Assembly (NCBI RefSeq): GCF_033547155.1
Contig: NZ_CP137892.1
Coordinates: forward strand, 2,604,001 to 2,668,000
DNA length: 64,000 bases
Source: Pseudomonas benzenivorans
GTDB lineage: Bacteria; Pseudomonadota; Gammaproteobacteria; Pseudomonadales; Pseudomonadaceae
Direction: 5' to 3'
The stretch's first letter is position 1; every line of letters begins with the position of its first letter. Under the pieces are notes generated by a model. The model did not search any database, was not told the DNA's origin, and saw only the letters and a program-made list of their open reading frames with translations. A program made the translations under genes and the position numbers. Positions 360 through 39,493 of this stretch are shown here, piece by piece.

Positions 360-371
360 TTGTCTCAACAA
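360..371 (-). promoter_or_regulatory. Leader hairpin of the GAGA-loop family
   Basis: On the minus strand TTGT-TGAG-ACAA forms a 4-bp stem. It is followed by AAAACAACAAGA and the ribosome site of the gene at 1-318. It is the weakest member of a family of six leader hairpins (see 23277, 30039, 36369, 38867, 39475). Confidence 0.45.
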
Positions 372-399
372 GTTAGGAAGTTGTAAATACATCAACTGC

Positions 400-417
400 A
401 AACATACCTAAAACCAG
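400..417. promoter_or_regulatory. Operator-like repeat, copy a
   Basis: The sequence AACATACCTAAAACCAG resembles sites at 29228-29246 (opposite orientation) and 29973-29990. All three lie upstream of genes with their own leaders. A repressor site is inferred; no cognate regulator is identified. Confidence 0.4.
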
Positions 418-483
418 TTACTACGCAAGAGCAATTGCCGGCTTTGAGGTCAAACAGGGCCTTAATATACTATGTGGATTATA

Positions 484-2892
484 TTAGCGATTAACAGTGA
501 TGGTCTGGACATCCGAATACTGACCATTAAGCTTGGCCTTGATAGTGAATGTGAGACTATCAGCATAAGTTCCTTCGACATATTGCAGCTCATTGTTCTC
601 ATCGAAGTACCAGGTGCGACGCAGCTCAAGTTCATTGTCGAAAGCCCAGGCTTCTGCTGACACCTCTTCCGTGCGAAGAATGCCGCTTTCGTCTGCGACG
701 GTAACGACGTACGTGCAGTATGTGAGCTGGGACTTGTCTTGCTCTTGATGCACGATGCTTGTGTCCGATCCGTCGCGTGTGCGCCATTGCAGTGTCGCTT
801 CGTCGATGATGAGTCCGCCGTCTGCAATGCCGTTGACCCGGAGCCTGCCGGGCCTCCAGGGCTTGCTGTTGGCCCCTTCATAGTGATACTCAACGACCGT
901 CGCATCAGCGTCTTTCAAGCGATTCGTCGCGGTCTTCGTCAGCATCTTGAAGCGAATCCACTCATCTTTCGTGTACTTCAGCTTGATCGCAGACGACAGA
1001 TCACCAGCCGCCCAGATCTTGGCACCGACCGGGTGAGCCAGTGGCCTGGTGTTAAAGATCCCGCGCTTCACGTCTAGCAGTCGTGCAGTCGTGGAGTTGT
1101 CGATCACGGTGCTCTTTGCATAGACCCATTCACGCCCTGCCCCGCTTGAGATCAAGTACAGGCCCATTCCCTGTAGGCCTTCTGATTCCGAGTACGACTC
1201 AAAGCCCACGGTGCTGCCGGTGACTGTGATCGATGCCTTCGAGTAGATGCCAGCAGACAACGACTCACCGCTGCTAAAAGTCTTCGTGAAGTACTGCTCT
1301 CCTGCGTCGATGAAAGACGAGTCGTTCTGTGCCTGCACGAGCAGCTTGAAGCTCATCGCATTAGCCGGGGCCTCGGCCATTAGCAGCACAGCGTCCGTAA
1401 GACCATCTGCGAAGATCGCTGGTGCGTCGATGATCTCGTACGAAGTGACGTTGCTGGCAGTGACCGAAGGCTTCGTCCAGGCACGCTCAGAGCCATCGCT
1501 GTAGACGGCAGAGAAGATCCCGTAGACATCTTGCACAAGGTTCATTGTGATTCCGCCGCTATCGAGCGAGCCAAGATTCACAGCAGTGACGCGCATGATT
1601 TGCTTATCGACGCCGAGAAACGGCCAGGTCAAGCTAACCACGTCGCCAACATTTATCTCTGAAAACGCGCGGGTGCACTCGACAACGCAGGACTTCATCG
1701 GCGACGAAATGGCCACGAGCTCACGCTGCGCGATCTTTGCCGCGATCTGCGCTGACGTGACCTGGGGCATGCTGATCGTCTGACTCTCGACGTCGCCCTT
1801 GTGCATCCGCAGGGCATTGTTCTGAGCAATCGCAGTGCGCTCTTCATAGCCGTGTTCGCGCGACAGGTACTTGACCCGGATTTCGTTCACGCCAGTGTCA
1901 AGGCTGCCGCTGGTGTAGCTCGAAACGGCCTTCAAATTAGACGGATTTAGCTCCGGAATCGTGGTGTTGCCATAGTCATTCCGCGTCAGCTTGAGCTTAA
2001 TTTTTCCCGTCTTTGGATCGTCGATCAGGTTACCTTGGATCACTTTCATGATCTCGGTGATGATCTGGCCAGCAGAAGCGGCGCTATCAATTACTAGAGA
2101 GATGCCAAAGTTCTCACCAAAAAGAGTCGAGCCGGCCATTAAGAACGACTCAGAATCGATCAAGTTTTTGGGGATTCCCGCGCCATAACGCTTGTCTGTC
2201 AGTAGCTCATAGACAACAAAAGCAGGGTTCGCGTCAGCGCCGATTCGCTCATTGAACGTGCCAGTGAACCCGTTCGTGTAAAGCTTGGGTCGAGGGGCTT
2301 TCGGAAACCTTGCTACTTCAAATGAGATTTTCTGCGGACTCGGGGAGTTGCCGATCCAGAAACCCTCAAACACTGCATAGCAAAGGCCTTTAAAACGGGA
2401 GATGCCGTCACCAACTTTTGCGCTCAAATAGCCATTTACAGGCTGGTATTGAGAGCCGGAATAGAAGCTAATTTTCCCGCCAGCGCCGCCAAATTCATAC
2501 TCTTCATTAGCGATATTAATTACAGAATCGCCGTAGAAAGTTGAATCAGCAAGAATGACGTCGCCGAAAATTATCTTTTTAAGCTCAACGTCAGGGCCAT
2601 GACAAATACCGAGCTGCACGCCCATATAATACTTGTGGCCGACAACTGTTTTTGTAGTGCGAAAAAGAGTCTTAACCTTCTCGGTTATTTCAGTGGTTTT
2701 TAAATCCCCGTACCACAAAACATTAGGGCCAGATATTTTTCGCGTGCCAAAGACTACTTGAATCGGACGCTCTGCGGCGCTTGGGAAATTAAAATCCTCA
2801 ATACCGGAGGCTTTTGCGCCTTCTGTTTTTGGGATCATCCGGGCCATAACAAACAACCCGATCAATACAAGACCAGCAAGAATCCAATTCAT
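484..2892 (-). CDS. Tail tip/host-specificity protein (Phage-tail_3 type)
   Basis: An 802-residue protein at the distal end of the tail module. It starts with a hydrophobic segment (residues 3-18), followed by beta-rich sequence of the type seen in tail-tip and baseplate hub proteins related to lambda gpJ. It lies downstream of the gpL-like gene, the usual place for the central tip protein that contacts the cell surface. The TTTGAGCGCAAA motif falls inside it at 2417-2428 (read as LSAK). The assignment rests on position, size and family-like sequence; the receptor cannot be predicted. Confidence 0.75.
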   Translation of the reverse strand: MNWILAGLVLIGLFVMARMIPKTEGAKASGIEDFNFPSAAERPIQVVFGTRKISGPNVLWYGDLKTTEITEKVKTLFRTTKTVVGHKYYMGVQLGICHGPDVELKKIIFGDVILADSTFYGDSVINIANEEYEFGGAGGKISFYSGSQYQPVNGYLSAKVGDGISRFKGLCYAVFEGFWIGNSPSPQKISFEVARFPKAPRPKLYTNGFTGTFNERIGADANPAFVVYELLTDKRYGAGIPKNLIDSESFLMAGSTLFGENFGISLVIDSAASAGQIITEIMKVIQGNLIDDPKTGKIKLKLTRNDYGNTTIPELNPSNLKAVSSYTSGSLDTGVNEIRVKYLSREHGYEERTAIAQNNALRMHKGDVESQTISMPQVTSAQIAAKIAQRELVAISSPMKSCVVECTRAFSEINVGDVVSLTWPFLGVDKQIMRVTAVNLGSLDSGGITMNLVQDVYGIFSAVYSDGSERAWTKPSVTASNVTSYEIIDAPAIFADGLTDAVLLMAEAPANAMSFKLLVQAQNDSSFIDAGEQYFTKTFSSGESLSAGIYSKASITVTGSTVGFESYSESEGLQGMGLYLISSGAGREWVYAKSTVIDNSTTARLLDVKRGIFNTRPLAHPVGAKIWAAGDLSSAIKLKYTKDEWIRFKMLTKTATNRLKDADATVVEYHYEGANSKPWRPGRLRVNGIADGGLIIDEATLQWRTRDGSDTSIVHQEQDKSQLTYCTYVVTVADESGILRTEEVSAEAWAFDNELELRRTWYFDENNELQYVEGTYADSLTFTIKAKLNGQYSDVQTITVNR

Positions 2893-2921
2893 ATTTTCTT
2901 CTTATTATTATTTTATGAATA

Positions 2922-16119: not shown

Positions 16120-16580
16120 AGGCCGATCTCGCACAACCGACGCTCTTCAGCACGGCGCTTAACGAGTCCAGGCCATTGCTTGCCGTCAGCGTAAACCCAT
16201 CGACTTAGTTCTTCGCACGACCCAGCAGTGTCTCCGGCATTGAGCTTGCGAAGCATGGTTGACTTAGCAAACCTCGCAGACCCGACGTTGTAGACGAATG
16301 ACACGAGGGCTGCTCTTCGTTCAGCCGGTAATTCGACTTTAACCAGACTATCAATTTCTGAAAGTACCGACACCAGGTCTTCATCGAGAAGCAACTTGCA
16401 CTCGGCATCGGTCTTTTTTTGACCAAGTTTCGCTGTTTTTGTATGCCCGTAGCAGACAGTAGGAATGCCAATGGGATCTAGATATGCACTGGGCTTATTG
16501 CCCTCGAAGTACATGATTACTGGAGTGGCAACAGCGATTGCGGCAGTAATGGAAGCGGCAGCGAGTTGTTTACGTAGCAT
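16116..16580 (-). CDS. SAR-type endolysin, GH24 muramidase
   Basis: A 154-residue lysozyme cutting peptidoglycan. The N-terminal segment (residues 8-22, Ala/Ile/Val-rich, weakly hydrophobic) fits a signal-arrest-release anchor, so export would be by Sec with release when the membrane depolarises. Catalytic triad by T4 spacing is E26, D35, T41 (YFEG, YLDPIGIPT). GGAGAGCGGGG precedes the start, which overlaps the end of the holin gene. Confidence 0.88.
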   Translation of the reverse strand: MLRKQLAAASITAAIAVATPVIMYFEGNKPSAYLDPIGIPTVCYGHTKTAKLGQKKTDAECKLLLDEDLVSVLSEIDSLVKVELPAERRAALVSFVYNVGSARFAKSTMLRKLNAGDTAGSCEELSRWVYADGKQWPGLVKRRAEERRLCEIGL

Positions 16581-16788
16581 CCCCGCTCTCCTTCTCCTTC
16601 TTTTTCTTAGCGGTCAATTCGCGCTTCAAAAGAAAGAAAATCTGGAGAACAAGGTAAATGACGGTCAGAATTACAGCCCAGTCTTGTACTGAAATACCCA
16701 TCAACATAGCTGCTGAAACAGTTACAGGCGGGGCTGATTTGATTGCTTCGACTGTAAAGTCTTGAATATTTTGATGAGCTGGTGACAT
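16570..16788 (-). CDS. Holin
   Basis: A 72-residue protein with a hydrophobic central stretch (VTVSAAMLMGI and WAVILTVIYLVLQIFFLL, one or two membrane spans) and a highly charged C-terminal tail (KRELTAKKKKEKES), the layout of small phage holins. It is the first gene of the lysis cassette, overlaps the lysozyme start, and follows a late-type promoter. With a SAR endolysin it would act as a pinholin or timing holin. The family cannot be named with certainty. Confidence 0.75.
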   Translation of the reverse strand: MSPAHQNIQDFTVEAIKSAPPVTVSAAMLMGISVQDWAVILTVIYLVLQIFFLLKRELTAKKKKEKESGDAT

Positions 16789-16852
16789 TTCTTGTTCTTA
16801 TTATTAGTCATTACGCCTCTTCTGGGCGCTATTTCTATTAGTATAACACTTG
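16789..16852 (-). promoter_or_regulatory. Late-type promoter and leader for the lysis cassette
   Basis: The minus strand has AAGTGTTATACT (TGnTATACT extended -10; hexamer 16840-16845), then a leader containing a CGCCCAGAAGAGGCG hairpin and CTAATAATAAGAAC before the holin ATG. The upstream CAAGTGTTAT stretch is shared with the promoter at 10567. Confidence 0.5.
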
Positions 16853-22735: not shown

Positions 22736-23251
22736 TTACATGAACTGCGAAAACAGAACTATCTTCAGCCGGTCTTTGTCGTCGAGCTTCGCGATGTAGT
22801 TAAACAGAGTGCCGAAGTTAACATCTGAACTCTTATCAACACGCTCAATCCAGCGATACAGCAAACGTGCCAGTCCATAATTCCCCATCATTACCAGCTG
22901 AAAAAACCTATCAACAACAAGATCCAGGTCTTCACGGGTGACGTGTATCAGAAGCTTCTTAATAACTTCCTCATTGCCGAGCACTGGATACTCAGCGATT
23001 TCGAAGAGCACGACTTTGGCACCAAAGCAAGCCGCCAGGGCTTTGTAGCAGTCGATCTGGGGCTGTGAGAGCTCCATGGCCTTGCTGCGCTTTGCTTCGT
23101 GCATTTCGAGCTTAGACAGGGCATTCAGGACGCTTGCCTGGGCATGTACCTGCTCGAAGCAATCAAGCTCGTGGAACGTGTTGAAGATGTCTGCGGGACG
23201 CTGGTCTTTGAAGGCTTTGACTATCTCTGCGACAATCAATTTTGTACTCAT
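22736..23251 (-). CDS. Hypothetical phage protein with early-type leader
   Basis: A 171-residue helical protein with no recognised domain (LDCFEQVHAQASVLNALSKLEM; LVVDRFFQLVMMGNYGLARLL). The ATG at 23251 is used because AAAGGTGA lies 8 nt upstream; an in-frame GTG overlaps that ribosome site. Its upstream 110 bp closely match the promoter-leader of the gene at 30080 on the other strand, including the leader hairpin and the CTCTAACAACAAGAA stretch, so the two are probably co-regulated. Function unknown. Confidence 0.6.
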   Translation of the reverse strand: MSTKLIVAEIVKAFKDQRPADIFNTFHELDCFEQVHAQASVLNALSKLEMHEAKRSKAMELSQPQIDCYKALAACFGAKVVLFEIAEYPVLGNEEVIKKLLIHVTREDLDLVVDRFFQLVMMGNYGLARLLYRWIERVDKSSDVNFGTLFNYIAKLDDKDRLKIVLFSQFM

Positions 23252-23375
23252 TGTGATCACCTTTATTCTTGTTGTTAGAGCTTCTCTCGACTCTTAATTA
23301 CAGAATAAACATGATCCATTGAGTAGTAAATATTGACGCAGAGTTAGTTTTAGGTGGACTTCGATTTATTTGTAT
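23252..23375 (-). promoter_or_regulatory. Early-type promoter-leader cassette
   Basis: Read on the minus strand: an operator-like ACCTAAAACTA, ATATTTAC, ACTCAATGGATCAT, TGTAAT as likely -10, the hairpin, CTCTAACAACAAGAA, then AAAGGTGA. The same blocks in the same order occur on the plus strand at 29973-30080. Confidence 0.6.
23277..23294 (-). promoter_or_regulatory. Leader hairpin of the GAGA-loop family
   Basis: AGAGU-CGAGAGAA-GCUCU: four Watson-Crick pairs and one U-G pair around a CGAGAGAA loop, about 15 nt before the ribosome site of the gene at 22736-23251. Confidence 0.6.
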
Positions 23376-23734: not shown

Positions 23735-23873
23735 GTTGCACCGTTTATTATTATTGTTATGTTTCTATTGTAAGAATAGAGATGTTGCACGGTCAACTAA
23801 TGAAGTTGCTGTATAACTGAATAGCGGGAGTTGTAAAGCTAGAGGAGATATTGGGTTAGCTAGCTGCGCTGAT
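23735..23873 (-). promoter_or_regulatory. Promoter of the gene at 23396-23734, otherwise empty
   Basis: Contains the -10 TACAAT and A/T triplet leader of the minus-strand gene. Nothing else is seen between it and the repeat element. Confidence 0.4.
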
Positions 23874-23874
23874 T

Positions 23875-24058
23875 AAGAGTTTTTCAAAGCCAGAAGAACC
23901 TCCATGGCCAAGATGCATGCCTGGATAACCGAGAATCGCAGTCTTGTCCACGGGCTACACTCGCACAGGCTAGACTCACACCCTTAGTAAAATAAGAAGA
24001 GAGAGAGAGAAAGGATCATAGGCAAGGGCTGCCCTTCTCCTGGTTTTTCGAAACTCGC
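23875..24058 (+). repeat. Phage intergenic repeat element, copy 2
   Basis: A 184-bp element with ends AAGAGTTTTTCAAAGCCAG and CTGGTTTTTCGAAACTC (imperfect inverted repeats). The core GTCCACGGGCTAC is at 23946-23958, and a CCCTTAGTAAAATAAGA block and a purine-rich GAGAGAGAGA run follow. It contains no open frame of note and lies in a 394-bp gene-free interval. Confidence 0.75.
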
Positions 24059-24129
24059 ATGCAGCGCAGCTTGTGCGGAGCATAAAAAACCTGGCACGCG
24101 CCGGGTCTTGTGAGTATTTCGCCATGGTA

Positions 24130-25691: not shown

Positions 25692-26051
25692 GTGTCATTA
25701 ACGCCGCTTTCGGGGATCAATGCATTGAAATGGACACATCGTGCGCTGCTCTTTCTGCACTTTGCCGGCGAAAAAGCAGAGGCCAGGGTGCGTAAAGCTG
25801 CCAGGTATTTCGACGACTATGTATCAGAAGTGCTCCAAGAAAAGCACGACGACTACGAGATTCAGGACTTCACTCTCGAAAGAAGCCGTGATGAATACAC
25901 ACTCATTATTCATTACCCAGGCGGCACAATCGAAGTAACGACCCAGAAGGCTCTAATTCTCGGCATGCAGGCAGCCCGAAAACGCCTCACACGCGACAAA
26001 GCAAGCGTCGAAGACAAGCGCTTTTTGCTAACAAATGATCTTGGTTTATGA
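25692..26051 (+). CDS. Small protein 2 of the cluster
   Basis: A 119-residue basic protein beginning at GTG 25692, 19 bp after gene 1. It lacks the full tag but ends KRFLLTNDLGL, matching the last residues of the cluster motif (DLGL). The middle (DEYTLIIHYPGGTIEVTTQKALILGMQAARKR) looks alpha/beta; a similar arrangement (beta strands, then a long helix) is seen in gene 8. No family is recognised. Confidence 0.5.
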   Translation: MSLTPLSGINALKWTHRALLFLHFAGEKAEARVRKAARYFDDYVSEVLQEKHDDYEIQDFTLERSRDEYTLIIHYPGGTIEVTTQKALILGMQAARKRLTRDKASVEDKRFLLTNDLGL

Positions 26052-26052
26052 C

Positions 26053-26349
26053 ATGAAAAAGTTCAGCGAAAGGCACTGGCGGAAAACCATTGAGTCTTGC
26101 GACTTCACAATGTACGTCTTTCAGCGCGCAAATGACCTCAAAGTCGGCGGGTTTCCAGAGTATTTTGCAGTCGTTTTAGATGCATACCTGATCGAATTTG
26201 GCATGGTTGAGCATGACTTTAACTCTCAAGAGCAGCTGGAGATTGACGAGATGCTTGAGGCTTTGAGCGCAAAGTATCTTGAAGATCCCAGCAAGGCGCA
26301 CTTGGCCAGTGTCATGCGCCTGAAGCTCGAAAGAGACATGGGCGTGTAA
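26053..26349 (+). CDS. C-terminal-tag family small protein 3
   Basis: A 98-residue protein. The ATG at 26053 follows the previous stop by one base; an overlapping upstream ATG (26035) has no support. It ends with the tag KYLEDPSKAHLASVMRLKL then ERDMGV. The upstream half (EYFAVVLDAYLIEFGMVEHDF) resembles part of gene 7 (LFLDIIHAMLIEFGVERFD), so homology between members extends beyond the tag here. It contains the 12-mer at 26262-26273. Confidence 0.6.
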   Translation: MKKFSERHWRKTIESCDFTMYVFQRANDLKVGGFPEYFAVVLDAYLIEFGMVEHDFNSQEQLEIDEMLEALSAKYLEDPSKAHLASVMRLKLERDMGV

Positions 26350-26391
26350 AAAAAACGCCGGTCGGATTCGAACAACTCTGGGGTTAATGGC

Positions 26392-26685
26392 ATGCATCAC
26401 ATCAGGTTTCTGAGCGACGGCAAGCACAAGGGGCTTGATGACCTAAATGCTGAGACGAACTTTCCGCTGTTCAAGAAGCTGTTTTTTGTTGGATTGCCGT
26501 CACGGAAGCTCGTCAAGGAGATCATTGCTTGTGAGGAGTTCATATGTCATGGCGGCGATCTGCATGCTTGTGAATCGTATGCTGACGTAATCAATGGCCT
26601 GACCGAAATCTATCTGCAAGACACGAGCAAAGAGCATCTGCGCAAGTACCTCCATCAGCGCTTGCGCGACGACCTGGAGATCTGA
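26392..26685 (+). CDS. C-terminal-tag family small protein 4
   Basis: A 97-residue protein ending in the tag IYLQDTSKEHLRKYLHQRL then RDDLEI. The N-terminal two-thirds are unlike the others, with a KKLFFVGLPSRKLVKEIIACEEF segment and several Cys and His residues (CEEFICHGGDLHAC). A metal site is possible but unproven. It ends two bases before gene 5. Confidence 0.6.
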   Translation: MHHIRFLSDGKHKGLDDLNAETNFPLFKKLFFVGLPSRKLVKEIIACEEFICHGGDLHACESYADVINGLTEIYLQDTSKEHLRKYLHQRLRDDLEI

Positions 26686-26686
26686 C

Positions 26687-27019
26687 ATGCACGATAAATT
26701 TCAGCAGCTCATGCAGCACCGCGAAGCCGTTGTTTATGCGCGCAGACACATGATCATCAGCGCAGCACGCCGAGAATCAGGACTCTCAATCCTCGAAATA
26801 CTGAACCTGCACTCCCCCTTTCATGGCGTCAAAAACGAGTACGAGGCAAAGAGATTTGCGCTCAAATCCCCAGAGCTTGAAGCAATCCTCACGCTGAAAG
26901 TGTGCGAAATCTACTGGCAAAACCCGACAAGGACATGGCTCAAAGACTTCGAAACCATGCTGATCGATCTGCCGCTTGAGCTGATTCTGAGTCAAAGTTA
27001 TGAGCCAAACCATGCCTGA
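26687..27019 (+). CDS. C-terminal-tag family small protein 5 (diverged tag)
   Basis: A 110-residue protein. The tag region is diverged (CEIYWQNPTRTWLKDFETML) and followed by about 20 extra residues, so the family motif is not at the very end. The 12-mer TTTGCGCTCAAA is at 26855-26866, read as FALK. Its end overlaps gene 6 by 20 bases, a sign of translational coupling. Confidence 0.55.
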   Translation: MHDKFQQLMQHREAVVYARRHMIISAARRESGLSILEILNLHSPFHGVKNEYEAKRFALKSPELEAILTLKVCEIYWQNPTRTWLKDFETMLIDLPLELILSQSYEPNHA

Positions 27020-27215
27020 TTATCTGACGCTCTACTTCGAATACGAGCTGGAGTTTGGCAGCAAAAGAGCCCAAAGCTTGCTGTTTGTGTCCGAAGATCT
27101 GTCACTAGAAGACGTTATTCGAGAGGAAATGGCCGCTGAATATCTACGAAACCCAGAGAAAAAGCACCTGGCCAAGTATCTGCGAGAACAGCTGGAGGGG
27201 GATTTGGGCTTATGA
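27000..27215 (+). CDS. C-terminal-tag family small protein 6 (minimal member)
   Basis: The shortest member, 71 residues (67 if the ATG at 27012 is used). About 45 residues precede the tag EYLRNPEKKHLAKYLREQL then EGDLGL. As the most compact copy it shows that the tag plus a short helix is enough for a separate gene. It overlaps both neighbours. Confidence 0.6.
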   Translation: MSQTMPDYLTLYFEYELEFGSKRAQSLLFVSEDLSLEDVIREEMAAEYLRNPEKKHLAKYLREQLEGDLGL

Positions 27216-27481
27216 GACACCCAGCGGTTGTAAATGAGCTGGAATTCGTTGAGCTATGCATGTGTGTTTCACGCGGGTATCTGCCAGAGCGCGAAATTCC
27301 AGAGCTTTTTCTAGATATTATTCACGCAATGCTTATTGAATTTGGCGTCGAGAGATTCGACAAAAGAATGCGAATCAATGATGCAATTGACGAGCTTTGC
27401 AGGCATCTAGAGAAGTACCCGGAAAAGACCCATTTGCAGGTGTTTCTGCGCATGAAACTTGAAAGAGATCTTGAGCTATGA
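27212..27481 (+). CDS. C-terminal-tag family small protein 7
   Basis: An 89-residue protein starting in an ATGA overlap with gene 6. The tag is CRHLEKYPEKTHLQVFLRMKL then ERDLEL. The preceding LFLDIIHAMLIEFGVERFDKR stretch matches gene 3, so genes 3 and 7 are the closest pair and probably arose by duplication inside the operon. Confidence 0.6.
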   Translation: MRHPAVVNELEFVELCMCVSRGYLPEREIPELFLDIIHAMLIEFGVERFDKRMRINDAIDELCRHLEKYPEKTHLQVFLRMKLERDLEL

Positions 27482-27801
27482 GTTTAGTACCAACAGACCT
27501 TTTTAGCTTTGAGCGCAAACGCCAGAGCCATGAAGTCAGATACAAGATCGACTACATGTGCGAGCTGCTGGACGACTATCTTGAGACCTTAATCAGCGCA
27601 GAAATTCACTTGCTGACAGTTAAAGTGACGCACGACGATATCAAGATCAGCTTTCAAGTTCCAGATGACGAGCCCTACTATTCTTTTATCAGCTTCGGTA
27701 ATGCCTTGATGTACATGCGAGCAGTTATTAAACGAAGCCGGCGCATCGATCTGAGAGAGAAATACACTGAGAATTTATTGGCTTCGGAGCTTGGCCTATG
27801 A
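27478..27801 (+). CDS. Small protein 8 of the cluster
   Basis: A 107-residue protein in an ATGA overlap with gene 7. Only the very end of the tag is kept (EKYTENLLASELGL). The middle has beta strands (IHLLTVKVTHDDIKISFQVPDDEPYYSF) followed by a helix, similar in layout to gene 2. It contains the 12-mer at 27508-27519 (FERK). Confidence 0.55.
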   Translation: MSLVPTDLFSFERKRQSHEVRYKIDYMCELLDDYLETLISAEIHLLTVKVTHDDIKISFQVPDDEPYYSFISFGNALMYMRAVIKRSRRIDLREKYTENLLASELGL

Positions 27802-28088
27802 CCGTCCAGGATCTGATCAATGCCCTTCTTTTGCTACCCAAAGATACGGAAATCGTTGTAGAAGGCTATGAGAATGGCTTCGATGCCGTGCACGAATTGC
27901 AGCAAATCCAGGTCGTGCAGGTGAAGAACCCGGAAGATTTTAATGGCCAATATCAGCTTGAGTCTGACTTAAATAACCATGGATGGTATCTCACGACAGA
28001 GCAAAAACAGGACATTACAGAGACGATTCAGCACGGAAAACGTATTAATGCCGTGCTAATTCGCGGGAAAAGGGGGCAGTTGAGATGA
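27798..28088 (+). CDS. Hypothetical phage protein without the tag
   Basis: A 96-residue protein in an ATGA overlap. It begins MTVQDLINALLLLPKDTEIVVEGYENGFDAV, a pattern known from a widespread group of small uncharacterised phage proteins (VxELIxxLxxLPxDxxVxVxGYExG). It lacks the cluster tag, so it is an unrelated gene carried in the same operon. Function unknown. Confidence 0.6.
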   Translation: MTVQDLINALLLLPKDTEIVVEGYENGFDAVHELQQIQVVQVKNPEDFNGQYQLESDLNNHGWYLTTEQKQDITETIQHGKRINAVLIRGKRGQLR

Positions 28089-28366
28089 CTAGGGCACTGA
28101 ACTCCGATGAAGCAAAGTTCCTGCTATTTACAATTGAGCACAGGCACAACTCCAAAAAAAAGAAGAAATATTTTGCGGATTACGGGGAGATTAATATCCG
28201 TGCCTACTTCGATTTCATTAAAGAATTCGGGTATCACAACACTCATGATAAGCAGACTTTCGCTGAGTTTCGCGATGTATTAGCCGACATCTATCTGCAA
28301 AACCCAGAACGCCAGGAATACGCCGTCTATTTGCGCTCAAAATTAGAAGACGATCTCAATATCTAG
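28085..28366 (+). CDS. C-terminal-tag family small protein 9
   Basis: A 93-residue protein, ATGA overlap with the previous gene. It ends with the tag IYLQNPERQEYAVYLRSKL then EDDLNI. The N-terminal half is basic (KKKKKYFADYGEINIRAYF). The 12-mer at 28330-28341 lies across the tag codons, read as LRSK, so the tag and the DNA motif overlap here but not in most members. Confidence 0.6.
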   Translation: MTRALNSDEAKFLLFTIEHRHNSKKKKKYFADYGEINIRAYFDFIKEFGYHNTHDKQTFAEFRDVLADIYLQNPERQEYAVYLRSKLEDDLNI

Positions 28367-28404
28367 CGCAGAAATCGCTACTTCTAATACCTCTGGAGAA
28401 TTGA

Positions 28405-28767
28405 ATGCTAGTCAGCACCAAGCTAATTTTAGCTACCCTTGCGGCTATTTTGGCTGTCATGGCGTGTAGCTTTATCAGTAGCCATGCATTTTCAGCGCAG
28501 AAGCGCATCGACAAGCAGGGAATTGTTGGCTCCTGGGTCGACAAGGCAGGTGGCTCCACAACGGCTATTGAGCGCAATGGCGACACCTACAAACTGGTCT
28601 GGATTGCTCACGGCGGCTATCGTACTGAATTCCCACTGCTCCGTCGCGGCGACAGACTGATGAAGAACGACCCACTGGGCATTAGCTACGAGATCAACGG
28701 CGACAGCCTGGACATCTACGACAACACCGGCTTCATCCGTTCCATTGGGCCACTGCCGGAGAGCTAA
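28405..28767 (+). CDS. Small exported protein or lipoprotein
   Basis: A 120-residue protein with an N-terminal signal (KLILATLAAILAVMACSFISS); VMAC could serve as a weak lipobox at Cys21, or the segment could be a plain signal peptide. The mature part (GIVGSWVDKAGGSTTAIERNGDTYKLVW) looks like a small beta-barrel of lipocalin-like or DUF-type periplasmic proteins. It closes the plus-strand cluster and overlaps the convergent gene by 4 bases. Phage-encoded exported proteins of this kind often act in the lysogen (for example superinfection exclusion), which is only an inference here. Confidence 0.6.
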   Translation: MLVSTKLILATLAAILAVMACSFISSHAFSAQKRIDKQGIVGSWVDKAGGSTTAIERNGDTYKLVWIAHGGYRTEFPLLRRGDRLMKNDPLGISYEINGDSLDIYDNTGFIRSIGPLPES

Positions 28768-29003
28768 CCCACAGCTCCCATAGCCTCAATAAGCTCATCC
28801 CATAGCTCTCCATTGATGCAAAACAAGGCATCAGGACTCTGCTTTAGCGCGTAGATCTGCATCTCTTTTGTCTGCAAATTGTGCGGAATATGACGCAGCG
28901 CATACCAGTTTTGGCGCAGGGCATGCCAGCAAACCTCTTCTGTCTTCATTGAATCTGGCAGAGAGCGCATGTAATCGATGATATCAATTGCTTTGTCTGT
29001 CAC
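28764..29003 (-). CDS. Small DUF4116-like protein
   Basis: A 79-residue protein made of two short helical repeats of the DUF4116 type (CWHALRQNWYALRHIPHNLQTKEMQ then IYALKQSPDALFCI). DUF4116 repeats are found in proteins of unknown function and in some effectors. It overlaps the gene upstream by 20 bases and converges on the exported protein gene. The repeat assignment is by pattern only. Confidence 0.5.
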   Translation of the reverse strand: MTDKAIDIIDYMRSLPDSMKTEEVCWHALRQNWYALRHIPHNLQTKEMQIYALKQSPDALFCINGELWDELIEAMGAVG

Positions 29004-29139
29004 GCTTTTTGCGCTCCAGAATATCTTTCATTATTTCAACGGCATTCTCGGCTTTGATATCGCGGATGAGCGGATAGCCCTGTTCTCTGAGCTTTGCCAT
29101 GTTTTCTTTAATGGTCTTTTCTTTCGAATCTTGAGTCAT
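28984..29139 (-). CDS. Small hypothetical protein
   Basis: A 51-residue charged protein. The ATG at 29139 is preferred because AGG lies about 9 nt upstream; the frame is open further up to 29184, where the 12-mer (29161-29172) would be read as FALK. It is probably the first gene of a two-gene unit with the DUF4116-like gene. Function unknown. Confidence 0.45.
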   Translation of the reverse strand: MTQDSKEKTIKENMAKLREQGYPLIRDIKAENAVEIMKDILERKKRDRQSN

Positions 29140-29218
29140 GTGACTGACCTGCATTTTAGATTTGAGCGCAAAACTGTAGCTCAAGAACGATAGCAGACGA
29201 CAGATTGCTGGGCAATAT

Positions 29219-29322
29219 TTGACGGCAAACTAGTTTTGGGTATGTTCGGGGTTTGAGGATTGTTTGAATTAGGGCTCATTGAGATAATAAGAACATAACA
29301 ATAACAACAAGTGAGTTTTAAT
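29219..29322 (+). promoter_or_regulatory. Promoter, operator-like site and leader of the two-tag gene
   Basis: The operator-like AACTAGTTTTGGGTATGTT is at 29228-29246 (copy b). TTGTTT near 29260 and GATAAT near 29283 are 17 bp apart and make a likely promoter. The leader AACATAACAATAACAACAAGTGAG precedes the ATG at 29323. Confidence 0.5.
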
Positions 29323-29972: not shown

Positions 29973-30079
29973 AACATACCCAAAACTAGTCACCTGTCTA
30001 TATTTACAACTCCAAGGATGATAGTTAATCTATACATAAGAGTTGAGAAACACTCTAACAACAAGAAAAGGTGACCACT
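29973..30079 (+). promoter_or_regulatory. Early-type promoter-leader cassette
   Basis: Operator-like AACATACCCAAAACTAGT (29973-29990), ATATTTACAACTC, GGATGAT, TATACA as -10, hairpin 30039-30056, CTCTAACAACAAGAA and AAAAGGTGA. It is homologous block by block to 23252-23375 on the other strand. Confidence 0.65.
30039..30056 (+). promoter_or_regulatory. Leader hairpin of the GAGA-loop family
   Basis: AGAGU-UGAGAAAC-ACUCU, five perfect pairs, 15 nt before the ribosome site of the gene at 30080. Confidence 0.65.
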
Positions 30080-30439
30080 ATGTTTAACTCTACTACTAAC
30101 AACATCTTCAACACTGCCCGCAAAGCCCTCGGCGAAGACACCCTTAATAGCCTGATCATCAAAACCTCAGAAGCCCTGGCTGACGTCAAGATTGAAGGCC
30201 GTGGTAATGCCCGCGAACAGCTGGGTTTGAGTTCAAAAAACGTTGGCCGCGTAATGAAGCTGGCACGGTTTAAGAAAGTTTCAACCGGGATTGGGGCTCA
30301 TAACTATCGCATTATGTTTCCAGCTGGCTTCGTGGAGACGCTGAAACAAGAGATTCTTAAAGCCGCTATGGAGTCTTACACAAAGAATCCGAGCCGGGAA
30401 GTTGCGGAACTGTTCTTAGATAAGAGTTTCCTGGCGTAA
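30080..30439 (+). CDS. Putative small DNA-binding protein
   Basis: A 119-residue basic protein (ATG 30080, AAAAGGTGA upstream; a GTG three codons earlier overlaps that site). The central REQLGLSSKNVGRVMKLARF segment could form a helix-turn-helix, followed by a possible wing (STGIGAHNYRIMF). The C-terminus (SYTKNPSREVAELFL) is a distant form of the cluster tag. With its elaborate leader and own terminator it is a reasonable candidate for a phage regulator, but no family is recognised. Confidence 0.55.
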   Translation: MFNSTTNNIFNTARKALGEDTLNSLIIKTSEALADVKIEGRGNAREQLGLSSKNVGRVMKLARFKKVSTGIGAHNYRIMFPAGFVETLKQEILKAAMESYTKNPSREVAELFLDKSFLA

Positions 30440-30797: not shown

Positions 30798-30804
30798 GTT
30801 TGGG

Positions 30805-32279: not shown

Positions 32280-33857
32280 TTAGAAAACACCGGCTTTCAC
32301 GCTAGAAGTAGGACGCTTCCAGGTAAGGCGATAAGCAAGGGCGTCCCAGGCGTGGTCATCACCACCCTTTTTAACAGAATCTGGCTCATCCTCATCCCGG
32401 TAAAGCTCTGGCAAAGTCCTAATTAAGAACCGGCAATTAGTAAAGAAATATATGTGCGGCCTTTCGGGATTCTGGTCAATCGTTGACTGAAGTCTGTCAT
32501 ACATTATCTGTGCGCTTGTTACACGAGAGCCGCTTGACTTGTCTGACGTTACGAACGTTATTCCGCTAGATGCTAGATCCTTCCCCAAAGTGGGAGCTGT
32601 GCCATTATCAACTCTAGCGCCGTTATATATTTGATTATCTGCTGGCCCCGGTGAAACCTTTGGGTGATTTTTAAGTATCTGATTCTGTAATTTCATCTCT
32701 CTTTCTTTAAGCCTGAATCCAACTTTACTGGCAGACATTTCAAGGCCAAGGTTTCTCTTAACTTGTTTGCCATCCGGCGTTAGAGGCGTTCCGTAATCCT
32801 CTCCGACAACAATCAAGCTTCCTTTTGGTGGGCAGAATGGCTTACCGTTTATCATGACCGTTTCACCGTTTGCTTCTGCCGTCCAGAGGCAACAGAACGG
32901 TGTCGATGACCCCCAGTCAAAAGACCTAGAAACATGCCAGTTAGCTGGTATTACAAAAGGCTCCATTAGGAGTACGTCTCTATCCCAAACCTTGGCAAAC
33001 ATGGCAGTGTCATCTACAACTTCCCAATTCCCGTAAAGCCAGCTTTCTCGAACAACCGGATCTGAAATACTCATCAGCCAGGCTTTGTAGCCGATATCTA
33101 CATATGAGTTCTCAAAGATAGTTCCGAAGATAGCAAGCCTTTTCCACTCAACCTGAACGTCGTTGCCGTCATTGTCCTTTAGGGTTTTAACGGTCGATTC
33201 TATTTGCCCGTTTCGTTTGCCATCAATAAAGCGCTCTTTTACCCATGCCTTCCCGATACCCCATGGGTTAGTCATGGCCCTTACTTGCTTTGGTGGCATT
33301 AGGGGCTGTCGCTTTGTAGGCTGGTACGCAGTTCTTAGTGTCGACAAGAGCTTTTCGTATATCTCGTCAGTAGCCCAGGTTGTAAGTTCATCGAAGCCGA
33401 TGTATGTATATTGCTGCCCGTGAAACTTGGCTTCGTACTGCTGCGGCTTTTCAATGAACTGAAAAATCAATACTTCGCCTGTAGGAAACGTCCATTCGCG
33501 CTTGGAAATATTGTATTTAGCGCCAGGAAATATCCTAGGAAATAGCTTGTGCGACTCATTGATCAGGTCATTTAGTGCCGAGCACTGGCGACGAATAATC
33601 ACACCACGCCAGTATTGCCCCCAGCCCTTGCCAACATGCTGACCGAACCCCATGAGCAAGCAGACGCTTTTGCCGTTGCCGCGAGTACCATGAAAAAGAA
33701 CTTCATGAACCAGGCTGTTCGGTTGCCCAACTGCTAAGAAGAGTTCTTGACTAGAAAGCCCGCCAGTCTTGCTGCGCGTTGGTTGCCACACCACATTTCG
33801 AGCCGTTCGGGATCTGCGCCTACGTATTTCAGCAATCTGTGCAATTTCAGCGGCCAT
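32280..33857 (-). CDS. Terminase large subunit
   Basis: A 525-residue packaging motor. Walker A is GTRGNGKS at about residues 57-64, Walker B is YIGFDEL near 145, and the C-terminal nuclease has SFDWG, a later acidic patch and DHAWDALAYR (conserved Asp-His and Asp). The ATG at 33857 with AGGGG upstream is preferred to a TTG 8 codons earlier. It overlaps the C39-like gene. The DNA-end type cannot be read off with certainty. Confidence 0.92.
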   Translation of the reverse strand: MAAEIAQIAEIRRRRSRTARNVVWQPTRSKTGGLSSQELFLAVGQPNSLVHEVLFHGTRGNGKSVCLLMGFGQHVGKGWGQYWRGVIIRRQCSALNDLINESHKLFPRIFPGAKYNISKREWTFPTGEVLIFQFIEKPQQYEAKFHGQQYTYIGFDELTTWATDEIYEKLLSTLRTAYQPTKRQPLMPPKQVRAMTNPWGIGKAWVKERFIDGKRNGQIESTVKTLKDNDGNDVQVEWKRLAIFGTIFENSYVDIGYKAWLMSISDPVVRESWLYGNWEVVDDTAMFAKVWDRDVLLMEPFVIPANWHVSRSFDWGSSTPFCCLWTAEANGETVMINGKPFCPPKGSLIVVGEDYGTPLTPDGKQVKRNLGLEMSASKVGFRLKEREMKLQNQILKNHPKVSPGPADNQIYNGARVDNGTAPTLGKDLASSGITFVTSDKSSGSRVTSAQIMYDRLQSTIDQNPERPHIYFFTNCRFLIRTLPELYRDEDEPDSVKKGGDDHAWDALAYRLTWKRPTSSVKAGVF

Positions 33858-34293
33858 TCTCGACCCCTGATTTGATGTCAAATCCTTCTTTTGATAGCAA
33901 AATTAGGCAATCAACAACGCACTCGTAATCAGCAACAAACATTGTGGATGTGACGTTTGTACTTGGGTCATGGATAAGTTTGCCGTCAAAAAAAACCTGA
34001 TGGATAACACCATGCCTGTTCATGACCTGAACAATTGCTGGACGCCCAAGGCGCTCAAGGATTTCTGGGTTTTGGGCTTGGATTGAGATTCCGCAAGCTT
34101 CACTGAACCCAGATAGCGGGATGTATGTAGTGATTAAGCCATGGCTAAAAAGAATGCTGGCAGTTTCCTGTATCGTCACGCCAGAAAAGGCACGATTCTC
34201 ACCATAAACCGAGAGCGCATAGTCATAATCAGCGCCAAGAAAGTTAGCTAGCGTTGCAATTCCGCAGTCGGTTTTAAGCTGTTGTTTGATCAT
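33847..34293 (-). CDS. C39-like cysteine peptidase fold protein
   Basis: A 148-residue protein with DCGIATLANFLG at the N-terminus and HQVFFDGKLIHDPS near the C-terminus. Cys10, His98 and Asp109 would be the triad of a papain-like/C39 peptidase fold. It sits between the two terminase genes, overlapping both, so it is made with the packaging machine. Whether it cuts a virion protein, removes a tag or is an inactive binding domain cannot be said. Confidence 0.6.
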   Translation of the reverse strand: MIKQQLKTDCGIATLANFLGADYDYALSVYGENRAFSGVTIQETASILFSHGLITTYIPLSGFSEACGISIQAQNPEILERLGRPAIVQVMNRHGVIHQVFFDGKLIHDPSTNVTSTMFVADYECVVDCLILLSKEGFDIKSGVENGR

Positions 34294-34799: not shown

Positions 34800-34802
34800 C
34801 AG

Positions 34803-36052: not shown

Positions 36053-36139
36053 GGAGATCTCTTTTTTTGTTGTTTTGGATCCTCCGTTTTTTTACTGGTC
36101 AGGCTCCTTTACCGCCAGGCCTTACATGCTAGGGATTTA

Positions 36140-36346
36140 CTACCACTTAAGCGCAAGGCCTACTGATGGCGCACCGATTCCCTTTAGTCTTTCATTAAGC
36201 TCTGTAGCTGCTTTTATATAGGCTTCTGTCGGCATGGACTCAATGTTATTGATATACATCTCTCTAAGTCGCTGCTTTTCTGCTTTAAGCTCTGGATAAC
36301 CATCTAAAATTTCTAACTCTTGCTTTACGAACTTCGGCCTAATCAT
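36140..36346 (-). CDS. Small hypothetical protein with early-type leader
   Basis: A 68-residue helical protein. REMYINNIESMPTEAYIKAA has a faint likeness to the cluster tag but lacks the HL..Y core. It has an early-type leader (TTGTCA, GGATGAT, hairpin 36369-36385), so it is regulated like the replication genes. Function unknown. Confidence 0.5.
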   Translation of the reverse strand: MIRPKFVKQELEILDGYPELKAEKQRLREMYINNIESMPTEAYIKAATELNERLKGIGAPSVGLALKW

Positions 36347-36368
36347 TTTTATTCTCTCTTATTGTTTG

Positions 36369-36385
36369 GAGCTTCTCTCTAGCTC
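36369..36385 (-). promoter_or_regulatory. Leader hairpin of the GAGA-loop family
   Basis: GAGCU-AGAGAGA-AGCUC, five perfect pairs. Upstream TTGTCA and a -10 such as TAAACA are 17 bp apart with GGATGAT between them, and a GTATATTTC-AAACTTTTACAG block (36444-36465) repeats the short element end at 29949. Confidence 0.65.
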
Positions 36386-36548
36386 ATGTGTTTATTATTG
36401 CAATCATCCATTGACAAGTAAACTAGCCAAGTTGTTATTTAGGGGTATATTTCAAACTTTTACAGTTTCGAACAACTTTGGATATTGCATGCCACAACCC
36501 CCCACACCCCCTAATTCCAATAACGGGGCTTCCCTGCCCCATCATCAC

Positions 36549-38852
36549 TTACACCACATACTTCATCATTTGCTCAAAGCTCTCTTTCTTGATGATGTAG
36601 TAGTACCCCGATTTGCCCCCGTTAACTTTCTTTGTCTTCAAACCCATCTGGCTCATGATCTTAGTGATCGCGGCTTGCTTCGCGACGGGTGTGCTGGCTT
36701 TGCCAATGCTCAGGCCCTGACGGATCACTTCAAGTCGGATCTCATTGAGCCTGTCGAAGAGTTGCGTGCTTTGCTCAGACTTCCACAGCCTTTCCAGTGT
36801 CTCTGCGGGTACATTGCCATCTGCATCAAGCTTGATTTTTACGTCCTTCAGCATGCGCTCTACGGCGTCTTTGATCATGGCGTAGACCTTGCCCTCTGGT
36901 GTGTCGCAGGCGGGCTTCATGAGCTTGCGGAAGCGTGTGATCGTGCCCTCGCCTTTCTTCCACACCGCCGCGTCGGAATCATCAATGGTGCGGCCAATGA
37001 CTTCTTCGGCACGTGCGCGGATAACCTCGAAGTATTCCTGCTCGCTTTCTGAGCCGGCGTCAGCAACTCTGGCGACTTGATCAGTGCCTGCCTTCTTGCT
37101 TGCCAGTACCTTACTGGCGGTGCTGGCATTGACGGTCTTACGACCTTGACTGTCTGCGACAAAGCCGAGCCTGGCCATCTCATCGTTGTGTACCAGTACT
37201 TCGACTTTGAAGCCCTGAGCAAGCATCGTGGCTGGTAGTGAGTTCTGAATGTGATCGCGCAACCAGGCTTCGTCGCTCATGTGCTCGCGGCGGGTCATCT
37301 CGAACGCCGATGGTTTGATGTCAAAGTCCAGAGCTTCAATCAGCGTCGCTTTGAGGTTTTCATCGATGTTTGCGGCTTCGATAGCAGCGCGGGTTGTAGG
37401 GGCATCAGAGCGCGTCTCAAGGGCCTCCAGCTGCTCTTGCTTGCTGTACTCAGGAGCTTTCATGCCCACGATGAATTCACGCGCCGTGCGGTCTCTGCGG
37501 AGCATCTGAATGCAGTCTGATGGCACTACCTGGCCACTGAACAGACCGAAGTGGCGGGTGAAGTGAGCGGACGTGATCGACAGCGCGGAAGTAATTACTG
37601 GGCTGTAGATGACGACTTGGTGAGAGGTGCTGTTTGGGTCTGCGATAAAGGCAGCTTGGGCCTCCCATTTTGCGCTCTCAGAAGTGATCACCAGGGCTTC
37701 CACACCAGTGCGCTTCTTGATCGCGGCAGCAAGGGCCTTGGCAGCCTTAGCGCCATCGCAAGAGACCAACACGTTTTCGCCGCCAGAGGTAGCCTCGATC
37801 ACTAGGCCGCGCACATGATCGAGATCCCCGGTCTTCACGGTAATATCGCTGTGATCGCGTTTGATGCTGTACAGCGTGTGATCCCAACCGATCATTTCAA
37901 CACACCTGGCATTGATATCAGCGTCGGCCATAACGACGGTGGGCGCGTTTTTGACAACAAAATTCAGGGCATTCCAGACGGCTTCGCGGGCCTTCACCTC
38001 TCCGCCGAGAACGTGGCTGATGACTTGGCTGGCTTCGTCAATGATCACTGTGTCGGCGCTCTCGATGAAGTCTTTGAACTTCGCTGCCGAGAGGGAGTTG
38101 ACGACGATCTTCAGCGCCCTGGCCTTGCGGATGATGTCCGGGGAGGTACACTCGTCGTAACTAACCATGCCAGCGATGCCAGTGCAGAGCGTGGCATTGA
38201 TAGAGCGACGGTGACTGATGATCAGGACTTTCTCACCGCATGACAGGGCTTCGCGAACCAGGGGCTCGATGATCTCGCTGGTCTTGCCATAGCCAGTGGG
38301 CAAGTTGAGGAGGAATTTGCCGGCTGTTGAGCAGATGTGTTGAGCGATTTCCTGAGCGCTTTCGGGGACGACCGTGTAAGCGTCTTCGTAGATGGAAGAG
38401 ACGCGCTGGGTTCTGCGATAGAGCTCGGCATTCATGCGCTCAAGCTTGCGCTCGATAAGGTACTGGCACTCAGCAGGAGAGCGGCCAGAGGCCAGTGCAA
38501 GCATTTCTGACTTGCCGACGATATCACCAGTGAGAAAAGCATCCCTGGCAAGCTCGTAGGCGGCCTTGTGCATTGCGCGGTCAGTGTGATCGTTGCTGGC
38601 GATCATTATGGCTACGTCAATTTTGCTCATCTTGTAGATAGAGTCAGTGATGACAGTGCCGTCTGTGTCAGCGATGCCGGATGCTGTTTTATATGCGGCT
38701 TCGATAGCTTCTGTGACGCCAGCTTTAATGCCTATTATTCTTTTAGATGCCGGGTAGTCAGCTCGTAGCTCTTTGGCTTTAGCTAAAACGTCATCAGCTT
38801 CTATTGTCGTGTAGCTTTCGATTTCAGTATTGATAGCGAACATGGACTTCAT
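36549..38852 (-). CDS. SF2 helicase, origin-binding/replication type
   Basis: A 767-residue protein. Walker A is PTGYGKTS (about 185-192), DEAS at 272-275 is motif II, and QMLRRDR (449-455) is motif VI of superfamily 2, in the order of herpes UL9-type and related phage helicases. The C-terminal third is helical with no domain recognised. It is divergent from the primase across the 79-bp inverted repeat and shares its promoter sequence. The ATG at 38852 is used; a second ATG at 38843 has a better spaced AAAGAG. Confidence 0.8.
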   Translation of the reverse strand: MKSMFAINTEIESYTTIEADDVLAKAKELRADYPASKRIIGIKAGVTEAIEAAYKTASGIADTDGTVITDSIYKMSKIDVAIMIASNDHTDRAMHKAAYELARDAFLTGDIVGKSEMLALASGRSPAECQYLIERKLERMNAELYRRTQRVSSIYEDAYTVVPESAQEIAQHICSTAGKFLLNLPTGYGKTSEIIEPLVREALSCGEKVLIISHRRSINATLCTGIAGMVSYDECTSPDIIRKARALKIVVNSLSAAKFKDFIESADTVIIDEASQVISHVLGGEVKAREAVWNALNFVVKNAPTVVMADADINARCVEMIGWDHTLYSIKRDHSDITVKTGDLDHVRGLVIEATSGGENVLVSCDGAKAAKALAAAIKKRTGVEALVITSESAKWEAQAAFIADPNSTSHQVVIYSPVITSALSITSAHFTRHFGLFSGQVVPSDCIQMLRRDRTAREFIVGMKAPEYSKQEQLEALETRSDAPTTRAAIEAANIDENLKATLIEALDFDIKPSAFEMTRREHMSDEAWLRDHIQNSLPATMLAQGFKVEVLVHNDEMARLGFVADSQGRKTVNASTASKVLASKKAGTDQVARVADAGSESEQEYFEVIRARAEEVIGRTIDDSDAAVWKKGEGTITRFRKLMKPACDTPEGKVYAMIKDAVERMLKDVKIKLDADGNVPAETLERLWKSEQSTQLFDRLNEIRLEVIRQGLSIGKASTPVAKQAAITKIMSQMGLKTKKVNGGKSGYYYIIKKESFEQMMKYVV

Positions 38853-38866
38853 CTCTTTTGTTATTA

Positions 38867-38882
38867 CAGTCTCTCACGACTG
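38867..38882 (-). promoter_or_regulatory. Leader hairpin of the GAGA-loop family
   Basis: CAGUC-GUGAGA-GACUG, five perfect pairs, before AATAACAAAAGAG and the helicase start. GGATCAT lies just upstream. Confidence 0.65.
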
Positions 38883-38925
38883 CAAATACAGTATTGCAAT
38901 GATCCTTTGAGTTATCAATACCATT

Positions 38926-39004
38926 ATCTATTGACACTTGGTTAATAACGGGTATGAAAGTGTATATTCGGTGGTCTATATGTGGGTAATCGGTGTATGA
39001 CAAG
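38926..39004 (-). repeat. Left arm of a 79-bp perfect inverted repeat, with promoter
   Basis: Identical to the reverse complement of 39355-39433. On the minus strand it holds TTGTCA (38998-39003), 17 bp, TATAGA (38975-38980), a good sigma70 promoter toward the helicase. Confidence 0.9.
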
Positions 39005-39354
39005 TGCTTGATCAGTGTAGATAAAAAAATCGGCACTTACCAATCAAGCTGCATTACATGCGAGTTTCGAAAAACCAGAAAAAATCCACTGCCGGGCACA
39101 GCACAGGGCACGCGCCATGCTATGCAATTCAGTCTAGCTCGTAAGCCACCTATCAGCCCTCTATCTATTCTTATTTATAGAGGTAAATGCGAGTGTAGCC
39201 CGTGGACGCAATGCATTGGTTTGGGTATACATCCAGGCCCTGGCTGGCGAGTTCTACTGGTTTTGAAAAACTCTTAACTAGCAAAGCTTGCTAACAGCGA
39301 ACAGTCGCCACAAGTCGAAACACCATAAAAATATTTTCAACCACTGCTCATACG
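39005..39354. other. Candidate replication origin between the inverted arms
   Basis: A 350-bp gene-free stretch. It has an AAGTGC/GCACTT and TTGAT/ATCAA stem near 39003-39048, then repeat element copy 3 (39061-39278), then an AT-rich part. Location between the helicase and primase makes an origin plausible; nothing else proves it. Confidence 0.4.
39061..39278 (-). repeat. Phage intergenic repeat element, copy 3
   Basis: A 218-bp element in the same orientation as copy 1. The ends are GTTAAGAGTTTTTCAAAACC and CTGGTTTTTCGAAACTCGC on the minus strand, with the core GTAGCCCGTGGAC at 39195-39207. Middle parts differ from the other copies while ends and core are kept. Confidence 0.75.
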
Positions 39355-39433
39355 CTTGTCATACACCGATTACCCACATATAGACCACCGAATATACACT
39401 TTCATACCCGTTATTAACCAAGTGTCAATAGAT
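39355..39433 (+). repeat. Right arm of the 79-bp inverted repeat, with promoter
   Basis: TTGTCA (39356-39361), 17 bp, TATAGA (39379-39384) point toward the primase, about 130 nt upstream of its start. Confidence 0.9.
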
Positions 39434-39474
39434 CAGCGTATTGCATGGATGATATCTCATAGTGATAATAGAAA

Positions 39475-39493
39475 TGTCAGCGAGAGACTGACA
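39475..39493 (+). promoter_or_regulatory. Leader hairpin of the GAGA-loop family
   Basis: UGUCAG-CGAGAGA-CUGACA, six perfect pairs, then AATAATAAAAAGGTGA and the primase start. GGATGAT lies upstream at 39447-39453. Confidence 0.7.

Follow-up and report, generated by a model that had tools for sequence, protein, structure and literature searches.

The described elements nearest in kind to the one considered here are the Hfq/Crc sites of Pseudomonas, the 5′-terminal stabilising stem-loops, and the SAS/ESAS elements of cluster K mycobacteriophages. AAnAAnAA or ARN repeats near the translation start are the form taken by the Hfq/Crc motif, and ompA, like papA, has a 5′-terminal stem-loop that stabilises its mRNA. 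The present element is a short hairpin that recurs in gene leaders of a prophage, in a 64,000-nt stretch of Pseudomonas benzenivorans DNA (NZ_CP137892.1, positions 2,604,001 to 2,668,000; hereafter the window, whose own numbering is used throughout). An original prediction had listed six such hairpins, with a constant GAGA loop and stems that differ while keeping their pairing; five are indeed present (at 23277, 30039, 36369, 38864, and 39475), and the sixth, at 360, does not belong to the set. The case for the structure is strong; what the structure does, we infer.

The Hfq/Crc translational-repression sites of Pseudomonas (amiE, estA, and rbsB) share with the window leaders ARN triplets that cover or adjoin the ribosome site, and hairpins accompanying ARN tracts. 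With amiE the likeness extends to sequence: AACAACAAGA, ten bases, occurs in the window leaders at 23294 and 30039, and amiE6ARN contains it in both of its printed forms (PMC6422490). The window leaders differ from all three in having the hairpin at the predicted 5′ end, in their biased loop, in belonging to a prophage, and in that about half of the prophage genes have the motif. The window leaders would resemble the papA-type stem-loops in opening the mRNA, as predicted, with a short stem and leaving the ribosome site behind it unpaired; the loop bias and the repeated use within one prophage family set them apart. The SAS/ESAS elements likewise stand before many phage genes, and about half of the SAS have inverted repeats just upstream, according to PMC3203893. 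As characterized there, SAS is one conserved 13-bp sequence with consensus inverted repeats, whereas here the stem is free and the pairing conserved; no SAS-type fixed 13-bp sequence at the start codon was seen, by inspection, among the listed leaders. Rfam 15 at gathering score found only a tRNA in the window and no leader-family match, and searches of an open-access library of papers yielded nothing on such leaders or on Hfq control of Pseudomonas prophages.

Stem pairing in related phages

Related loci were collected by protein alignment: the primase gave 29 viral loci and the helicase 80. Of these 80, 19 are close, with identity of at least 45% over the matched portion, and the other 61 are distant. 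The primase and helicase genes of these relatives have a short hairpin upstream of the start codon, with highly divergent stems (e.g., TGTCAG/CTGACA, AGCAGT/ACTGCT, GATGAG/CTCGTC, TATCGAG/CTCGATA, and GGGGT/ACCCC). In an arm-swap test of 28 non-redundant leaders out of 88, anchored on the loop motif only and with mis-anchored rows included, the true arms gave a sum of 293 versus 184 ± 14 (z = 7.9), which none of 20,000 permutations reached. All 45 cells of alignment A5 (9 rows) are paired, with double changes in 5 of 5 pairs. In A7 (37 distinct rows; fitted to the model structure, with two rows hairpin-less), 91.5% of cells are paired, and there are 67 double-change cells versus 20 after shuffling. 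The covariation score of both exceeds 500 of 500 shuffles, and alignments slid out of register are 24–53% paired over the two (35–51% for A7).

Two further comparisons bear on the same point. A GAGA-loop hairpin stands at the expected place in 38 of 67 upstream regions, versus 0–8 at 12 other offsets. By parsimony on the protein trees, 35 of 51 pair-state changes for the primase and 33 of 41 for the helicase are double and remain paired, with 6 and 1, respectively, involving an unpaired state; as hairpins were picked for pairing of at least 4 bp, this shows only that stem changes were many, and the rows for L019–L021, L024, L028, L030, and L031 are probably mis-set. The compensatory stem changes in homologous phages support a conserved RNA structure well, and the element is very probably base-paired RNA. 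This agrees with the original reading of the differing stems, and the proposed check by covariance model and homologous phages returned covariation rather than none.

Several observations weigh against so simple a picture. Two of five measures on A7 were matched by shuffles (double-change pairs in 438 of 500, further pair types in 153 of 500). RNAfold gives 32 of 37 leader hairpins a mean pairing probability above 0.5; the 5 below include that at 30039, which also has one pair broken in close relatives, with the loop mostly retained. (By inspection, the leader aligned to it in L003 and L018 has a different stem and the loop TGATCAAA.) The hairpin at 36385 has lost its 3′ arm in close relatives, and those of the primase leaders of L019, L020, L021, L026, and L028 are short or degenerate. 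Taken singly, hairpins are more stable than shuffles at p < 0.05 in 6 of 50 upstream regions (median 0.18, wrongly placed starts included).

Nor does the loop carry much weight within the window: the prophage has 48 GAGA-loop hairpins, versus 40.5 ± 6.0 in 30 dinucleotide shuffles, which is not above chance, and a significance of the loop by itself was rejected. With an A-rich linker required as well there are 6 (five leaders and one other), versus a shuffle mean of 1.1 and maximum of 5, and the host part of the window has none. Since GAGA-loop hairpins are common by chance in this DNA, the argument from a single window is weak alone; the case stands on position and on covariation across phages.

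Leader hairpins of the window and their promoters

The primase leader hairpin (39475..39493, plus strand; TGTCAG-CGAGAGA-CTGACA), identical in the related locus L046, lies at the predicted mRNA 5′ end, downstream of a predicted sigma70-type promoter (39441..39469, plus: TTGCAT, a 17-nt spacer with a CTCAT box, GATAAT) and upstream of the gene for a primase-like protein (39515..40789, plus; phrog_34715, with weak matches to DNA primase/helicase families). The helicase leader hairpin (38864..38885, minus; TTGCAGT-CGTGAGAG-ACTGTAA), whose stem is conserved in L046 and L053, precedes the replication helicase gene (36549..38852, minus; Herpes_ori_bp/RepA-like, phrog_38391); the hairpin had been recognized at 38867 with the stem CAGUC/GACUG, and the actual stem is longer. 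The hairpin at 36369..36385 (minus; GAGCT-AGAGAGA-AGCTC) precedes a 68-aa gene without family match (36140..36346, minus) and an endonuclease I-like gene. That at 30039..30056 (plus; AGAGT-TGAGAAAC-ACTCT) is weak, with an RNAfold pairing probability of 0.01, and precedes the gene for a basic 119-aa protein of pI 9.8 (30080..30439, plus); a distant relative of this protein in L004 (25% identity) has a leader hairpin too. The fifth (23277..23294, minus; AGAGT-CGAGAGAA-GCTCT), which by inspection pairs better in its L054 version, precedes a 171-aa gene with no PHROG match (22736..23251, minus). An additional probable hairpin, overlooked at first, lies at 16813..16829 (minus; GCGCC-CAGAAGA-GGCGT), ahead of a holin-like gene (16570..16788, minus; phrog_920); in its L054 counterpart, GCGCT-CTGCAAGA-AGCGC, one C-G pair of the window copy is T-A, and a G-U pair is G-C.

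A covariance model (R1) built on nine leaders, including the window hairpins at 36385 and 39475, placed all five accepted hairpins at the top of its nine window matches with filters off. The three outside the seed are weak under it (E = 0.046, 0.047, and 0.66); just behind them, at 29275, ranks a leader that lacks a hairpin (E = 0.73).

The site at 360..371 (minus; TTGT/ACAA) was rejected: it is a 4-bp stem on a predicted −10, absent from the 9 R1 matches. Because of this overlap (by inspection), the hairpin would not be in the RNA; the promoter there (TTTACA-17 nt-GACAAT) has a leader with an A-rich linker, AACAACAAG, and without a hairpin of the set. Two other leaders in the window have no hairpin, a sister promoter-leader at 29274..29311 (plus) with a GCTCAT box and AACAATAACAACAAG, and an AAN-rich one at 23740..23780 (minus), before a 112-aa gene. 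Repeats I2 and I3 indicate common descent for some of the window leader modules.

Over 36 leaders (3 of 39, judged spurious, were left out), a weight-based −35/−10 search that allowed offsets of −5 to +14 put the start of the stem at a median of 0 from the predicted +1, with a range of −4 to +5. This lends weight to, without proving, a place for the hairpin at the 5′ end of the mRNA, which we consider likely. The start codon follows 9–25 nt past the stem in 38 of 39 leaders, and a shared promoter-leader layout around the hairpins, as first proposed, is borne out. Of the 36 leaders, 14 have GCTCAT as the spacer box, 7 a close variant of it, and 7 GATSAT; in the other 8 the box is unclear or absent. 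The GATSAT boxes all belong to the phage of the window or to the relatives nearest to it. GGATSAT is the window phage's form of a GCTCAT-like spacer box. Reported about 8 bp ahead of a −10 in five leaders, GGATSAT does precede five; it ends 3 nt before the assigned −10 in four of them and 10 nt before it at 39475, where CTCAT occupies the register that GGATSAT has elsewhere.

The hairpin had also been taken as a mark of early genes. It does front the helicase and primase genes, but it has a probable copy at the holin-like gene, and sister promoters with the box are without it (29274, plus; L033:7078, minus; L041:4411, minus). These hairpin-less sisters make the hairpin an optional module.

The linker, the loop, and what may act on them

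Between stem and start codon, AAnAAnAA occurs in 24 of 39 leaders, versus 9.0 ± 2.4 in shuffles that keep composition, and three consecutive ARN triplets in 35 of 39, versus 18.5 ± 2.8. These are the leaders that passed filters for a promoter-like upstream region, a linker of at least 40% A, and a start within 34 nt; they include 2 judged spurious for the RNAfold set of 37.

The more surprising part of the finding is that the signature is prophage-wide. In the form of AAT/AAC triplet runs just 5′ of starts, it precedes 21 of the prophage's 45 genes that code for 100 aa or more, structural genes included (dinucleotide shuffles, 6.7 ± 2.1), and 82 of 294 genes in 23 family loci (shuffled, 26.2 ± 4.4), whereas 60 unrelated AT-rich viral loci have it at the shuffled level (42 of 432 genes versus 39.7 ± 4.6). 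Under a looser start rule the prophage has 22 of 45 and the family loci have 97 of 294, with none among the 23 genes of the host part; the distant-helicase loci have 15 of 761, and 118 unrelated loci 90 of 827. Under the same rule D3 has 0 of 50, F116 0 of 43, YuA 1 of 46, and F10 2 of 42, phages so GC-rich (0.58–0.65) that their contrast with the prophage is partly compositional. By gene, with mechanical gene starts here as in the prophage-wide counts, the signature is frequent before those for the endonuclease I-like protein (22 of 24), RuvC (19 of 23), and portal (15 of 22), and is found before 10 of 25 of a 148-aa family, 1 of 24 large terminase, and 0 of 27 small terminase genes.

These repeats suggest Hfq as a reader. 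According to PMC9890229, Hfq-Crc complexes use the distal face to bind ARN and the proximal one to bind RNA hairpins. A search of the window's own genome for Hfq and CrcZ found one Hfq gene and two CrcZ-family RNAs. Binding of the linker by Hfq seems a serious possibility, if somewhat short of an even one, to judge from the triplets; Crc-dependent repression of the leaders appears unlikely, though worth keeping in mind. Several points count against an Hfq-centred account. Within 30 nt of the start, only 12 of 28 helicase and 4 of 27 primase genes have the signature, and it is because of these low counts that the estimate for Hfq is held down. The signature is independent of the hairpin, occurring also at operon-internal and structural genes, and the AAN stretch may be an unstructured translation enhancer only. 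For estA, PMC9890229 reports stronger repression after removal of the hairpin.

On the reading preferred here, the sites would be promoter-leader modules belonging to a single prophage family. In each, transcription from a sigma70-type promoter, frequently with a GCTCAT-type spacer box, would start at the hairpin or a few bases off, so that the mRNA would begin with a 4–8 bp stem and a purine-rich loop of 5–10 nt; a single-stranded linker, mostly of AAN/ARN triplets (as in AACAACAAG), and then the ribosome site would follow. The paired 5′ end may hinder pyrophosphate removal and RNase E entry (RppH and RNase E depend on single-stranded 5′ ends, in the account of PMC3997798), and the hairpin would leave the ribosome site open. 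Host Hfq could bind the linker through its distal face, possibly together with Crc, and translation would then follow the host's Hfq/CrcZ state. We consider it evenly balanced whether the leaders are indeed such 5′-terminal RNA hairpin modules, acting on stability or translation and perhaps with Hfq.

A simpler device, with no trans-acting factor, would have the hairpin shield the 5′ end while the AAN linker keeps the ribosome site unstructured. The nearness of the hairpin to the predicted +1, the stabilization of mRNAs by 5′ secondary structure (in the treatment of PMC3997798), and the prophage-wide, hairpin-independent occurrence of the AAN signature are all in keeping with this. It leaves the loop bias unexplained, however, and the triplet phasing exceeds mere A-richness and is not seen in the 60 unrelated AT-rich loci; moreover, shuffling the downstream sequence makes linker and start codon only slightly more paired (0.73 with the true sequence versus 0.70; higher in 23 of 37). 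A purely passive role thus seems improbable, without being far-fetched.

The loop itself raises another possibility. It is not constant, as had been claimed: GAGAGA is the commonest type, and GTGAGA, GCAAGA, GAAACA, GCAGAA, CACGA, and TGATCAAA also occur. GAGAGA is the loop of 17 of 28 leaders picked for differing arms, and the loop is far steadier than the stem. Neither end protection nor Hfq accounts for this bias, a gap in the preferred reading, and it suggests one more recognizing factor beyond Hfq. A phage-encoded RNA-binding protein might read the purine loop and repress or activate the whole set, as a multi-gene translational operator. One leader-controlled gene encodes the basic 119-aa protein, which has a hairpin-led distant relative in L004. 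However, this protein has no PHROG match, its structural model (mean pLDDT 73) has no significant PDB match (best E = 0.72), and its relatives are few (16 by protein search, and a single one from viral contigs). No small gene family is common to the roughly 10-kb flanks of all 30 loci compared; those found in 19 and 18 of the 30 are HTH/excisionase-like in look (one was scanned). An operator of this kind is accordingly a rather unlikely explanation.

Antitermination, the other control first proposed, is little supported, while translational control stays plausible, with Hfq as the candidate host factor. The hairpin presumably resembles lambdoid boxB (nut), with its short variable stem and GNRA-like purine loop in phage leaders (here of GNRNNA type, in leaders of replication-gene transcripts), and might serve an N-like peptide or act on RNA polymerase directly. 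But it lies near the predicted +1 and beside single start codons, each gene or short operon having one, and it also stands before the holin-like gene; the A-rich linkers listed for the 39 leaders have, by inspection against the boxA consensus, no common boxA-like sequence, and GCTCTAACA, where stem meets linker, is confined to the leader at 23294. No N-like gene was recognized among the scanned proteins, where such peptides are easily missed. A boxB-like role is very improbable. Least credible of all is an element that acts as DNA where transcription starts, be it an operator or a cruciform, which the inverted repeats at near-fixed distance from the predicted −10 might suggest, since the stem letters vary freely while pairing holds, as a sequence-reading DNA protein would forbid.

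The prophage family

The first ~42.7 kb of the window has a GC content of 0.48, versus 0.64 in the remainder, and codes for tail, head, portal, terminase, helicase, primase-like, and integrase proteins. The presence of structural, replication, and integrase genes together points to an integrated prophage of Pseudomonas and siphovirus type. The integrase gene (41566–42681) adjoins a dihydrouridine-synthase gene. The helicase resembles RepA of phiHAP-1, VP882, PY54, and N15, which are plasmid-type prophages; the prophage here is integrated, with a phage-integrase gene.

Where the source of a primase or helicase relative is named, it is Pseudomonas, except for one Halopseudomonas and one Stutzerimonas record, and relatives occur in 5 of 398 same-genus genomes, the window's own counted. 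The INPHARED phage set has no DNA match to window positions 20000–44000, and its best protein identities are at most 29% for the helicase and 36% for the primase. A second covariance model (R2) matched only the window's own genome among the 398 (3 places), with 14 candidates scored per genome; genome G009 has a relative yet gave no match, so this search is silent on spread. Run on 38 of the 61 distant-helicase loci, R2 had no match at E ≤ 3. Among the matches listed for a promoter-only pattern in viral contigs, 123 places were checked and 16 have a downstream RAGA-loop hairpin, 8 in the known family (judged by sequence) and 8 unrelated.

Several other features of the prophage may be mentioned. 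A 102-nt inverted repeat (93%; 38916–39017 and 39342–39443) flanks a segment that lies between the promoters of helicase and primase, which point away from each other; this is a candidate replication origin. A block of ~250 bp is apparently present twice in opposite orientation (39040–39295, plus; 23850–24100, minus), as seen by eye, with a 45-nt part confirmed; its ends resemble GAGTTTCGAAAAACCAG and CTGGTTTTGAAAAACTC. Small genes run in series over 26035–29193 (plus), a possible accessory operon; none of the 8 scanned was above the Pfam cut-off. Beside the large terminase gene lies that for the 148-aa protein (33847–34293; phrog_31365, unknown function), which is in 27 of 30 loci compared and is C39-peptidase-like by eye only.

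To return to the reading in which Hfq takes part, this phage lineage may have placed Hfq/Crc sites before many of its genes, together with loop-biased 5′ hairpins at several promoters, so that replication, assembly, and lysis would be tuned via CrcZ. This is a doubtful proposal on present indications; if true, the virus would be wired to host nutrient sensing, that is, to the carbon-catabolite state, at the RNA level. What the family offers is an RNA leader element with strong covariation across phages, and with it an unexpected prophage-wide signature of ARN triplets. Viral gene output may be coupled in this way to a host RNA-control system; if Hfq, with Crc, reads the leaders, a defined RNA site could make the growth of temperate Pseudomonas phages depend on how the host is nourished.

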